This document shows, in pieces, positions 17,718 to 28,944 of a stretch of 37,270 nt of DNA. A model generated the notes under the pieces. That model saw only the letters and a list, made by a program, of their open reading frames with translations, ran no database searches and was not told where the DNA came from. Made by a program: the position numbers and the translations under genes. Location: positions 1-37,270 of the forward strand of contig VMGT01000005.1 in assembly GCA_007376725.1 (NCBI GenBank), given 5' to 3'. Origin of the DNA: Parcubacteria group bacterium Greene1014_15. Its GTDB lineage: Bacteria; Patescibacteriota; Minisyncoccia; Phycocordibacterales; VMGT01. Each line of letters begins with the position of its first letter. Within the stretch, counting starts at the first letter, position 1.

Positions 17718-19286
17718 ATGGCAGACACAGAAATAAGCGTACAGGATAAAATAAAGGAGATTACATCGCTTCGTGCCGCTCCATTCTCAAAGGAGGGCAT
17801 GATGCTCATGACGAGAGCATATCTCTTTGCTTTGAATGCCCATAAGAACCATACACGGTACTCCGGTGAGCCTTACATGGTTCACCTCCATGAGACTGCA
17901 AAAAACCTCGCCAAGCTCGGCATGGGATCGCATACGATTGCCGCAGGCCTGCTTCATGACGTTATTGAAGACACTGGAATTGATCAAAAGATAATCCAAG
18001 CTGAATTTGGCAATGAGATCCTCGGGCTCATTGAGGGGGTCACGAAACTGGGAACACTCAAATACCGCGGACTCAAGCGGCATACGGAAAGCTTGCGAAA
18101 ACTCTTTATCGCAATGTCGAAAGATTTGCGCGTGCTCATCATCAAACTTGCGGATCGTCTTCACAACATGCAGACACTCATGCATGTACCTCTACACAAG
18201 CAAAAACGCATCGCTGAAGAAACGCTCGAGATTTTTGCTCCGCTTGCCTATCGCCTTGGTATGCGATCTCTTAATCGCGAACTTGAAGACCTCGCATTTC
18301 CCTACGTCTATCCCAAGGAACATGCAGAGATAAAAAAAATGCTCAAACAAAAAAGCAAAGAAACAGGGGTACATCTCGAAAAGAATCTTCGTTCACTTCA
18401 GAAAGCGCTTGCAAAGGAGAATGTGCGCAACACCCATATCAGCTTTCGTATCAAGGGACTCTATAGCACATACAAAAAATGGCTGCGAAAAAACAAGGAT
18501 ATCAACCAGATTTATGATATTTCAGCAATACGTATCGTCGTGCCGTCAATACACGACTGCTATCATGTTCTTGGCATCATTCACGGCCTCTGGCGGCCTA
18601 TGCCAGGACGAATCAAAGATTACATCGCATTTCCAAAACCAAACGGGTATCAGAGTATTCATACAACGATCTTCACGGGCGATGGCAGTATTATCGAAGT
18701 CCAGATCAGAACGGAAGATATGGAACGAGATGCAGAGTTTGGTATTGCTTCTCATTTGATTTATAAAGAAGGACGGCCAGCGGACGAAACAAGCAATTTT
18801 GTCCGCCTCATGCAACTACTTTCCTATCGCACATGGTTTAGTGGAGAAAAAAGCGATTCGCAATCAGGAGCAACACCGCATGCGCCTGATGCATCCACGC
18901 CTCTCTGGGTACAACAGCTTGCCGAGTCGCAAGCAGAGATCACCGAGCCGCAAGAATTTTTGGAGAACCTGCGTGCTGACTTTTTCCAGCATCGTGTATT
19001 CGTCTTTACCCCTATGGGCGATGTCGTTGATCTCCCGGTCGACTCAAGTCCGATAGATTTTGCATACGCGATACATTCAGATATCGGGAATCATATTTCG
19101 GGCGCAAAAGTGAACGGTAAACTCGTCTCTTTAGACACAAAACTGCACAACGGCGATGTCGTGGAAATTCAGACAAAACAATCAAGCAAACCATCGTCCA
19201 AATGGCTTGAGTTTTGTAAAACCGGCGTCGCTAAAAGAAAGATTCAGGCATCTCTACAACCTCAAGATCAGAATCATTCCGCTTGA
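17718..19286 (+). CDS. RelA/SpoT-family (p)ppGpp synthetase/hydrolase, short C-terminus
   Basis: HD domain (GLLHDVIEDT), synthetase domain (RIKDYIAFPKPNGYQSIHTTI), TGS domain; ORF ends after TGS without an ACT domain. Confidence 0.93.
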   Translation: MADTEISVQDKIKEITSLRAAPFSKEGMMLMTRAYLFALNAHKNHTRYSGEPYMVHLHETAKNLAKLGMGSHTIAAGLLHDVIEDTGIDQKIIQAEFGNEILGLIEGVTKLGTLKYRGLKRHTESLRKLFIAMSKDLRVLIIKLADRLHNMQTLMHVPLHKQKRIAEETLEIFAPLAYRLGMRSLNRELEDLAFPYVYPKEHAEIKKMLKQKSKETGVHLEKNLRSLQKALAKENVRNTHISFRIKGLYSTYKKWLRKNKDINQIYDISAIRIVVPSIHDCYHVLGIIHGLWRPMPGRIKDYIAFPKPNGYQSIHTTIFTGDGSIIEVQIRTEDMERDAEFGIASHLIYKEGRPADETSNFVRLMQLLSYRTWFSGEKSDSQSGATPHAPDASTPLWVQQLAESQAEITEPQEFLENLRADFFQHRVFVFTPMGDVVDLPVDSSPIDFAYAIHSDIGNHISGAKVNGKLVSLDTKLHNGDVVEIQTKQSSKPSSKWLEFCKTGVAKRKIQASLQPQDQNHSA

Positions 19287-19310
19287 CATTGTTTAGTTTT
19301 GTGATATCAT
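19283..19310 (+). promoter_or_regulatory. Putative sigma70-like promoter
   Basis: TTGACA - 16 nt - TATCAT at the 3' end of the rel/spoT gene. Confidence 0.45.
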
Positions 19311-19366
19311 ATCGGCAGGTATCCCAAACAATTTCCAATATCCACCAACTTTGGGGAGATGAGCCA

Positions 19367-19966
19367 ATGGAAACTGAAGACGAACTTCAACAGATTCATG
19401 ATATTGAAAAGGGCTTTGCACTGCTCCATGATATGTCTGTATCTGCAGACATTATCAGTGCAAAGACAAAACTGCTGGCCGAGCTTGCCACCGAGCCAAA
19501 AACGCTCGATGGTACGCCCCTTTCGCAACTAGGCAAGGGGTTGCGGCAGCCTGGCGTTGAAACACTTCTCTGTATGGTTTGTCAAAAAGCAGGCTATATC
19601 GAAAATAAGCGGCCTGTTATGGCGAACTGCCCCGAGTGCCATGGAGCAGGCACACGCCCGCAAACATTTGAGTGCTTCCCGTGCCAAGGCTCGGGCAAGT
19701 TCACCCAATGGCGCACAGGACGTATCGTGCGGTGCAGAGTGTGTAAGGGATCGGGCAGATTTACCTCTCCAACGCTCACACAGGCATGCCAGACCTGTCT
19801 AGGACATAAAACCGTGCCCATCGACAACCAGTTCGTTGTCGATTATGTCAAGTGCTCGAAATGTCAAGGAATGGGGGAAACAAAAGCCCCATTCAAGCCC
19901 GTTTTCAACGACAACACGCGCCAAAAACTGCTGCAAGCACGAGAACGTGCAGCAACATCAAAGTAG
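19367..19966 (+). CDS. DnaJ-type zinc-finger (CxxCxGxG-like) protein lacking a J domain
   Basis: CPECHGAGTRPQ, CFPCQGSGKF, CRVCKGSGRF, CQTCLG, CSKCQGMG. Confidence 0.75.
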   Translation: METEDELQQIHDIEKGFALLHDMSVSADIISAKTKLLAELATEPKTLDGTPLSQLGKGLRQPGVETLLCMVCQKAGYIENKRPVMANCPECHGAGTRPQTFECFPCQGSGKFTQWRTGRIVRCRVCKGSGRFTSPTLTQACQTCLGHKTVPIDNQFVVDYVKCSKCQGMGETKAPFKPVFNDNTRQKLLQARERAATSK

Positions 19967-19970
19967 TACC

Positions 19971-19997
19971 AGCCTGCTCTCGCACCGGGAGCAGGCT
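19971..19997 (+). terminator. Intrinsic terminator-like hairpin
   Basis: AGCCTGCTC tcgcaccgg GAGCAGGCT. Confidence 0.55.
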
Positions 19998-20006
19998 GTC
20001 CATTTT

Positions 20007-21170
20007 TCATATACTAAAGTTTCTGACTGAATAAAGATTTTCCTCTTCGATTTTATCTTCGACAATAGTTTCTCGCGGTGGGGGCATACGCTCTTCCTCT
20101 TCAGATATATGCTCTTGTTCGGCAGGAAGATCACTTGGCGCAAGTTCTTCGATATTATCGCCATCATCACTATCAACAGCAAGCGGATCTCCTCCCATCA
20201 TTTCCGAAACCAACGCCGCTTTTTCTGTGGCATCTCCTGAAGAATCTTCGATCTCTACCTGACGCGCTTCTGCCACCACAGGCTGCTTTCGCAATTGTTC
20301 TTCCATATAGTTCTTAAGCAGTAAATCGGGATCTTTTAATTCATTCGTATGAATGAGCTCCAATATTTTGTGCAAGTCCTCATTCGAGAAAAAATCAATC
20401 ACAAGTTTGCCACCGACCTCGCGCTGTTCTATTTGCACACGCGTTCCGAGCGATTCTGCAAGACGCTTTTCAAGTTCGATGATCTCGGGATTATATCCTC
20501 GATCTTTCTTGCGAACGCGATCGGTCGCAATCCTTCTCGCAATTGATTCCGCCTCTCGGACGGTCAGCTGTTTGAAAAGAATTTCTTTATATAACGTCAT
20601 CTGCTCTTCTTCTCGATCACTCAACATAAGCAGCGCACGCGCATGGCCTTCAGAAACTTTTCCTTGCGATACAGCATTCTTAATTTCTTCAGACAATCCA
20701 AGAAGACGAAGACTATTTGAAACATATTCGCGGCTTTTTCCTATCTTTTTCGCCACCTGCGTGTGGCTGAAATGAAACTCGCTTACGAGACGATCGAAAG
20801 CCTTCGAACGATCGATAGCGTTGAGGTCTTCGCGCTGCAGATTTTCTATAATAGCGAGTTCAAGTTTCATCTGATCATTTTCTTCCCCGCTTCGTATCAT
20901 CACGGGAATATGCGCAATACCAGCCATTTTCGATGCGCGAAGGCGGCGCTCTCCCGCAATGAGTTCGTATGATACGGTAATACCACCCTCTTCGGTCGTG
21001 GATTCATGCCGCGTCACAACAAGCGGCTGAAGAATACCGTACATGCGAATCGATTCTGCAAGGTCGTTTAACCGATCCGGATCAAAATCCCGTCGTGGCT
21101 GGTAGGGATTTGGCGTAACCTTGTCGACTTCAACCCAGAAAATAGCATCATTTTGAAATTGTTGTGCCAT
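20007..21170 (-). CDS. parB: ParB/Spo0J-family partition protein with long acidic C-terminal tail
   Basis: NPYQPRRDFDPDRLNDLAESIRMYGILQPLVV, GERRLRASKMAG, ENLQREDLNAID, HTQVAKKIGKSREYVSNSLRLL. Confidence 0.93.
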   Translation of the reverse strand: MAQQFQNDAIFWVEVDKVTPNPYQPRRDFDPDRLNDLAESIRMYGILQPLVVTRHESTTEEGGITVSYELIAGERRLRASKMAGIAHIPVMIRSGEENDQMKLELAIIENLQREDLNAIDRSKAFDRLVSEFHFSHTQVAKKIGKSREYVSNSLRLLGLSEEIKNAVSQGKVSEGHARALLMLSDREEEQMTLYKEILFKQLTVREAESIARRIATDRVRKKDRGYNPEIIELEKRLAESLGTRVQIEQREVGGKLVIDFFSNEDLHKILELIHTNELKDPDLLLKNYMEEQLRKQPVVAEARQVEIEDSSGDATEKAALVSEMMGGDPLAVDSDDGDNIEELAPSDLPAEQEHISEEEERMPPPRETIVEDKIEEENLYSVRNFSI

Positions 21171-21378: not shown

Positions 21379-21460
21379 GCCGCGGTGGCGGAATTGGCAG
21401 ACGCATACGACTCAAAATCGTACGGGGAAACCCATGAGAGTTCGATTCTCTCCCGCGGCA
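21379..21460 (+). tRNA. tRNA-Leu (anticodon CAA), CCA not encoded
   Basis: GCCGCGG TGGCGGAATTGGCAGACGC ATACGA CTCAAAA TCGTA, long variable arm, GTTCGATTC, CCGCGGCA. Confidence 0.93.
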
Positions 21461-21654
21461 CACGAGCATACCTGCGAGTGTGGTGCGGAGCGAGCCAACT
21501 GCTTGGCTCGCGTGAGAGAATCGAAGGGCGCAGGCATATCGCGTACTCGCGATGCCGAGCCGGGGTCGAGAGCACTTGGGCTTTTGGGGTCCGAAGGACG
21601 AACAAAAGACTTAGTGACTCGTGACCGATTCTCCACATTCTCTCCCGCGACACA
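21461..21654 (+). other. Structured module bracketed by a duplicated tRNA-Leu 3' end
   Basis: ATTCTCTCCCGCGGCACA (21445) repeated as ATTCTCTCCCGCGACACA (21637); interior has several nested hairpins. Confidence 0.55.
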
Positions 21655-21697
21655 AACACAATTGATCGAATTCACGCCTCCACGTATAGTTTGATGT

Positions 21698-28645: not shown

Positions 28646-28944
28646 TTAGAATGATCCGTCGGTTGGTGTGCCACTTCCTTCTTGTTCCTGAATGTACTTA
28701 CGTATCTGCTCTTCGTTAAATCCCACAGTTGATACGCCATACCCTCGTGACCAAAAGTGCTCTCCGGTAAAATTACGCTCTTTCCTACTGTATTTGCGTA
28801 AGAGTGCTATCGTGCTCTTGCCTTTCAGAAATCCGATAATTGATGATACTGCGTGTTTCGGCGGTATCTTGATAAGCATGTGCACATGGTGTGGTATTTG
28901 CAATCCCATTTTGTGTGCGATAGGCTTTCATAGGTTGTTGACAT
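28646..28944 (-). pseudogene. IS200/IS605-family TnpA (Y1 HUH transposase) with internal deletion
   Basis: MSTTYESLSHTKWDCKYH in one frame, then HHVHMLIKIPPKHAVSSIIGFLKGKSTIALLRKYSRKERNFTGEHFWSRGYGVSTVGFNEEQIRKYIQEQE in another. Confidence 0.82.

Follow-up and report, generated by a model that had tools for sequence, protein, structure and literature searches.

A structured non-coding module behind a Patescibacteria tRNA-Leu gene is probably one copy of a mobile-element family with arms that match the neighbouring tRNA

Genes for tRNA are favoured targets of mobile DNA, and tyrosine-recombinase integrative elements use tRNA 3' ends as attB. To our knowledge, the ends of elements that target tRNA genes are fixed, and such elements favour a single tRNA or a small number of them. 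Among short non-autonomous palindromic elements are the Rickettsia palindromic elements, and in the case of integron attC sites and the ends of IS200/IS605 elements it is the folded single strand that serves as the substrate. REPs are described (PMC3733652) as sequences of 20-40 bp that bear fixed sequence tags.

The DNA analysed here (the window, 37,270 nucleotides) is contig C54 of a 1.17-Mb draft genome (G000), assigned to the same phylum as genomes recorded as Patescibacteria. It carries an intact tRNA-Leu (CAA) gene followed by a module, the parts of which are listed in Table 1. The genes located just upstream of the tRNA (17718-21170) are ordinary ones, coding for a RelA/SpoT homologue (HD, RelA_SpoT, TGS), a DnaJ zinc-finger-like protein and ParB. 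A sequence-only reading of this DNA had noticed that an 18-nt tRNA-Leu end, ATTCTCTCCCGCGGCACA (21445-21462), recurs with a spacing of 192 nt as ATTCTCTCCCGCGACACA (21637-21654), and this was borne out, 17 of the 18 positions being identical. The repeat proved to be longer than was claimed, the downstream copy beginning already at the T-loop nucleotide C56 (CGATTCTC..., 21626). Two of the strong hairpins that had been placed between the repeats were also found (H and core stem 2), together with a second arm that had escaped notice, an inverted T-arm copy (A2) lying between the two direct copies. We agree that there is no believable ORF: those listed across the module overlap the tRNA and look mechanical. 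The predicted folding energy of the 199 nt following the tRNA end was -91 kcal/mol, compared with -67.4 ± 4.2 kcal/mol for 200 shuffled sequences (z -5.69), none of which folded as well. When the window locus was searched against Rfam at gathering and at permissive thresholds, the tRNA alone reached a gathering score; a weak match of the module to ROSE_3 (E 4.2) was below gathering.

Table 1. Coordinates of the tRNA-Leu (CAA) gene and of the parts of the module behind it
Feature	Position	Strand	Description	Basis
Host gene	21379..21461	+	intact tRNA-Leu (CAA)	ARAGORN; Rfam tRNA, 56.7 bits
U	21443..21463	+	3' portion of the tRNA, beginning with C56 of the T-loop (CGATTCTCTCCCGCGGCACAC), from which both arms are copied	sequence comparison
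hp1	21460..21481	+	short hairpin ACACGAGCatacctGCGAGTGT directly 3' of the tRNA	
A1	21479..21489	+	imperfect inverted copy of the acceptor 3' strand	
H	21490..21511	+	hairpin GCGAGCCAA-CTGC-TTGGCTCGC, splits the inverted arm into two halves	
A2	21513..21525	+	T-loop and 3' strand of the T-arm in inverted copy (TGAGAGAATCGAA)	94% complementary
Core	21521..21628	+	conserved two-stem structured module	covariance model R1, 109 bits (the window copy is itself among the model sequences)
Core stem 1	about 21527-21563	+		
Core stem 2	about 21564-21626	+	long nested stem GGTC..GACC	
D	21626..21654	+	direct copy of the tRNA 3' part (CGATTCTC-cacattctc-TCCCGCGACACA)	

Comparison of the window stretch with 197 genomes of the same order yielded, beyond tRNA-Leu, many matches that covered the module only, often several per genome. 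A covariance model (R1) was built from an alignment of the core, for which 17 well-aligned sequences were available; on these, RNAalifold found 28 base pairs, and at 17 of the pairs there were compensatory changes on both sides. R1 is a home-made model that was seeded from matches to the window, and its E-values are rough. The sequence-only reading had proposed a covariance search of relatives, the lack of any homologous module being named as evidence against it, and a search for the module elsewhere in the same genome. Homologous modules were found in many relatives, with 20 copies in G107, 22 in G029, 23 in G041 and 29, the maximum, in G178; the genome of the window has three copies, and R1 found none in G004, G088 and G193. 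Applying strict filters, 40 of the 380 Patescibacteria genomes sampled were carriers. The genomes compared were mostly drafts, and the relatives were species representatives. The core of the family measures about 70-160 nt. An exact 19-mer taken from the 3' end of the core matched at least 116 stretches when 84,980 species genomes were scanned. Among the matches listed, the named records were all Patescibacteria (Yonath-, Kaiser-, Nomura-, Campbell-, Vogel-, Lloyd- and Niyogibacteria) and the remaining ones were bacteria without a group name, and the element is likely to be restricted to this phylum. Three exact pattern matches were obtained in viral contigs, none of which (0/3) had a tRNA detectable by ARAGORN; in L357 and L359 the 19-mer lies inside apparent coding sequence and the rest of the core is absent, so that these look like chance matches. 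No description of such an element was found among open-licence papers, and this family of small non-coding elements behind tRNA and tmRNA genes of Patescibacteria is apparently undescribed.

Of the 185 copies left after deduplication, 127 have a tRNA gene of the same strand no more than 150 nt upstream, and 150 have one no more than 400 nt upstream; the typical distance is ~60 nt. All 20 isotypes and 40 anticodons are represented among the tRNA-linked copies, and at six loci the neighbour is a tmRNA gene (Rfam tmRNA), whose 3' end is also copied in the arms. Typical copies have a constant order, consisting of U, the hairpin hp1, A (inverted U), the core and D (direct U from C56), which means that the tRNA stays intact. 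Occurrence of the same architecture at more than 100 other tRNA-linked copies excludes chance. The hairpin hp1 is variable, and in many relatives a terminator-like hairpin occupies its position. In 42 of the 127 copies a hairpin H, whose loop is of the CTGC type, divides A into two halves; the H loop of the window copy is also present in relatives and in a remnant behind a tRNA-Phe gene of the same genome. This truncated remnant (G000:C30, L002, 1522-1580) consists of the hp1 motif and the H hairpin, then TTTTTT, so that H can serve as a plain terminator after loss of the core and D.

The direct repeat D begins at C56 and is usually 6-12 or 18-23 nt long. In the largest class its end coincides with the tRNA 3' end or lies no more than 4 nt away, and in the second class it comprises the T-stem only. 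Most copies would have inserted in the T-loop between T55 and C56, whereas rarer variants are situated at the D-loop or the 3' end of the tRNA. In some copies (G107 Glu-CTC and Glu-TTC, G057 Arg-GCG, G102 Ala-TGC) the arms match the tRNA 3' end and the flank (CACAAA..), not the T-loop, which indicates that a second preferred insertion point exists. At the Phe and Ile tRNA genes of G029 a second copy of the tRNA lies downstream and contains a related module in its D-loop. Downstream of tRNA-Ile(TAT) of this genome (G029:C8, L399, about 9468) a second tRNA-Ile has hairpin-rich inserts in the D-loop, the anticodon loop and the variable loop; it is possible that a related family is aimed at other tRNA loops.

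To what extent arms and cores follow the adjacent tRNA was determined for the 127 copies (20 isotypes, 40 anticodons). The D arm scored 14.1 with its own tRNA and 5.3 with other isotypes (permutation z 54), and the corresponding values for the reverse complement of A were 11.8 and 6.4 (permutation z 36). In contrast, the closest relative of a core was located at a different isotype in 107 of the 121 cases in which both isotypes were known. For example, the Asp-GTC and Leu-GAG copies of G178 show 97% identity over a stretch that starts with the T-loop complement and includes the core, whereas hp1 and the inverted arm differ, each being suited to its own tRNA. Likewise, the Ala copy of G014 and the Ser copy of G041, two genomes of different families, share the core at 91% and have different arms. 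Of 992 arm positions beside the core, 820 were identical in U, A and D. A difference confined to D was seen at 77 and one confined to A at 71, while at only 11 did both arms agree against U. The large excess of single-arm differences over this last class indicates that A and D are independently drifting copies of the tRNA and not a co-maintained stem. A maintained A:D stem was rejected, having received no support in the proximal arm covered by this comparison.

Two Campbellbacteria of one genus, G107 and G029, differ in the occupancy of syntenic tRNA genes, among them those for Lys-CTT, Leu-TAA, Phe-GAA and Ile-GAT. In a second genus, G340 but not G286 has a copy at Arg-TCT, whereas for Leu-TAA the reverse is true; the cores are 91% identical. 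Units were also seen in tandem arrays, and in the genome of the window a pair of them follows tRNA-Cys (G000:C1, L111, 1185-1650). In this array the second direct copy continues beyond the tRNA for 16 nt of identical flanking sequence, pointing to duplication at the DNA level. A perfectly clean empty site, with the flanks aligned on both sides, was found in none of the species-representative relatives, and at the window locus itself the comparison by way of the downstream kinase-like gene met no orthologue of that gene in 40 relatives. Our preferred reading, which we consider probable, is that the window module is one copy of a mobile-element family that targets tRNA and tmRNA genes in their 3' part. 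Gene conversion between resident copies could underlie some of the core sharing.

It can be asked whether the module is instead a functional RNA linked to the tRNA, with a 3'-trailer or regulatory core and an antisense arm A pairing with the tRNA or with D, which would control folding, processing or level, selection keeping each arm matched to its tRNA. In six orthologous pairs comprising 370 stem pairs, both sides had changed and still paired in 16, one side had changed with retention of pairing in 10, and 18 were broken, compared with changes at 59 of 325 unpaired positions. The core and the hairpins keep pairing, which shows that the core is under structural constraint, be it for mobility or for function; the retained pairing could also mean a resident function. 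The very regular spacing from the tRNA is in line with such a role, and an invariant G-U pair in the core favours RNA of the + strand, the excess of G.T over A.C within the core being biased by the RNA model. In the hp1/A/H region, however, G.T and A.C (15 and 12) show no strand preference, and in many copies the tRNA and the core are separated by terminator-like hairpins. Judged from these sequence features, the earlier suggestion of an ncRNA co-transcribed with the tRNA seems less likely. The patchy distribution of carriers, the variable presence at the same tRNA within a genus, the independent drift of A and D, and the jumping of cores between isotypes likewise make a functional RNA unlikely. 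Old residents homogenised by gene conversion would provide a different explanation, according to which each tRNA had one ancestral element, the cores being swapped by recombination while the arms stayed. The start of the core identity blocks coincides exactly with the T-loop sequence that is shared, and those of G178 reach more than 100 nt beyond D, and many of the nearest core neighbours are within the same genome, as would be expected. This explanation is opposed by sister genomes with syntenic tRNA genes that lack all trace of arms or core, by the confinement of copies to a minority of the phylum and by nearest neighbours in different families (see the Ala and Ser copies above), and we leave it a small chance.

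The suggestion of a tiny integrated element with attL/attR-like repeats, which also came from the sequence-only reading, was right in so far as the element is probably mobile and has a direct repeat that comes from the tRNA. It does not represent an att-site element of the classical kind, given that the repeats vary by target, an inverted copy of the target is present and the complete carrier G107 has no match to the tyrosine recombinase profile PF00589 (other genomes have mostly a single copy). A miniature site-specific version, in which a tyrosine recombinase inserts a circle at the T-arm and leaves U and D as attL and attR, would agree with the fixed T-loop start of D and its frequent stop at the tRNA 3' end, which are like the identity blocks of tRNA-integrating elements, and with the tandem arrays. 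Yet a fixed att cannot explain arms that vary with 40 anticodons, nor the inverted copy A, and its chance seems likewise small. Finally, in view of the repetition of the tRNA 3' end, one could think of a degraded tandem tRNA copy, an outcome that had been considered from the start, or of chance palindromes; but the module contains neither a D-arm nor an anticodon arm, and its core is conserved throughout the phylum and alien to tRNA. The existence of a covariance family refutes this interpretation, to which we attach hardly any credence.

Returning to the mobile-element reading, the T-loop motif is found at both ends of the core, as TCGAA at the start and CCGA at the end, that is, as CGA-3' on both strands. 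We infer that the core could gain both arms at insertion through twofold copying of the target. For example, a core that is single-stranded or nicked would prime with its CGA-3' end on the complement of the T-loop in any tRNA gene, and extension of the primed end as far as the tRNA end would give rise to D on one side. Fold-back at a hairpin would generate the inverted arm A on the other side, and resolution at the palindromic hp1 would leave the tRNA intact. Fold-back copying of this kind would explain why the start is fixed at C56 and the ends lie at the tRNA 3' end, why tmRNA and tRNAs of every isotype are used, and why A and D are independent of each other. We tentatively propose, as a plausible scheme, a new mode of transposition in which a gene-less core passes from one T-arm to another among all tRNA and tmRNA genes, its ends being rebuilt by two-way copying of the target via self-primed fold-back at the conserved TTCGA of the T-loop; every tRNA could then act as a target and suffer no damage.

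Candidate agents would be a single-strand nuclease of the HUH/Y1 type with the folded core as its substrate or, as a fallback, template switching by host polymerases. Y1_Tnp (RAYT-like) genes were detected in 29 of 47 carriers and 16 of 49 non-carriers (Fisher p 0.0075), and were absent from the carriers G040, G284, G286, G340, G348 and G460. Reverse transcriptase (PF00078) was above the cut-off in one of 11 carriers tested and absent from the complete G107. By these gene-presence tests in carriers, none of tyrosine recombinase, reverse transcriptase and Y1 appears to be required. A retroviral-like stop at m1A58 was also rejected, since the sequence of A extends beyond A58. The window contains, at 28646-28909 (-), a truncated Y1_Tnp frame (IS200-like/RAYT-like) that covers profile positions 50-121 only, and there are five further Y1_Tnp matches in the genome.

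What is envisaged is a tiny gene-less element that occurs on tRNAs of all 20 isotypes and on tmRNA in a phylum of minimal genomes, and that seems to remake its ends from each target. If this is true, it represents a mechanism of mobility without described parallel and a new family of structured nucleic acids in one of the largest bacterial groups; it would also be a source of confusing tRNA-like repeats beside tRNA genes in Patescibacteria annotations.

Of the described systems, REP/REPIN sequences (RAYT, TnpA-REP, Y1 HUH transposase) are similar in being small, multi-copy, non-coding and hairpin-based, with a GGAG-like tetranucleotide before the hairpin, and RAYT-like genes are common in the genomes studied here. 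REPs, however, are not tied to tRNAs, whereas the present element has target-derived arms and several of its carriers lack Y1_Tnp; its two-stem core, given its size, is not a 20-40 bp palindrome with a GTAG/CGTC tag. MITEs are short, non-autonomous and palindromic, a likeness shared with the Rickettsia palindromic elements, and A and D resemble terminal inverted repeats. But MITE ends are constant and element-specific, while here they copy each target: the arms match the local tRNA and not each other between copies, and the direct repeat, with its two usual size ranges, is not a target-site duplication of fixed length. The intact tRNA, the identity-block-like direct repeat from C56 in the T-loop to the tRNA 3' end and the tandem accretion are as in tRNA-site integrative elements, from which the element differs by its size of less than 250 nt, the lack of an integrase in the complete G107, the additional inverted copy and the use of all isotypes. 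The near absence of reverse transcriptase from the carriers tested (see above) does not fit a retroelement. Like Rfam families it is a structured, covarying nucleic acid, but it corresponds to no Rfam family at gathering score. A MITE with fixed ends, an integrase-bearing tRNA island, a known RNA family and a broken tRNA were all rejected. With integron attC sites and IS200/IS605 ends the element shares a conserved folded structure of variable sequence, and it differs from them in that its arms are derived from the target.
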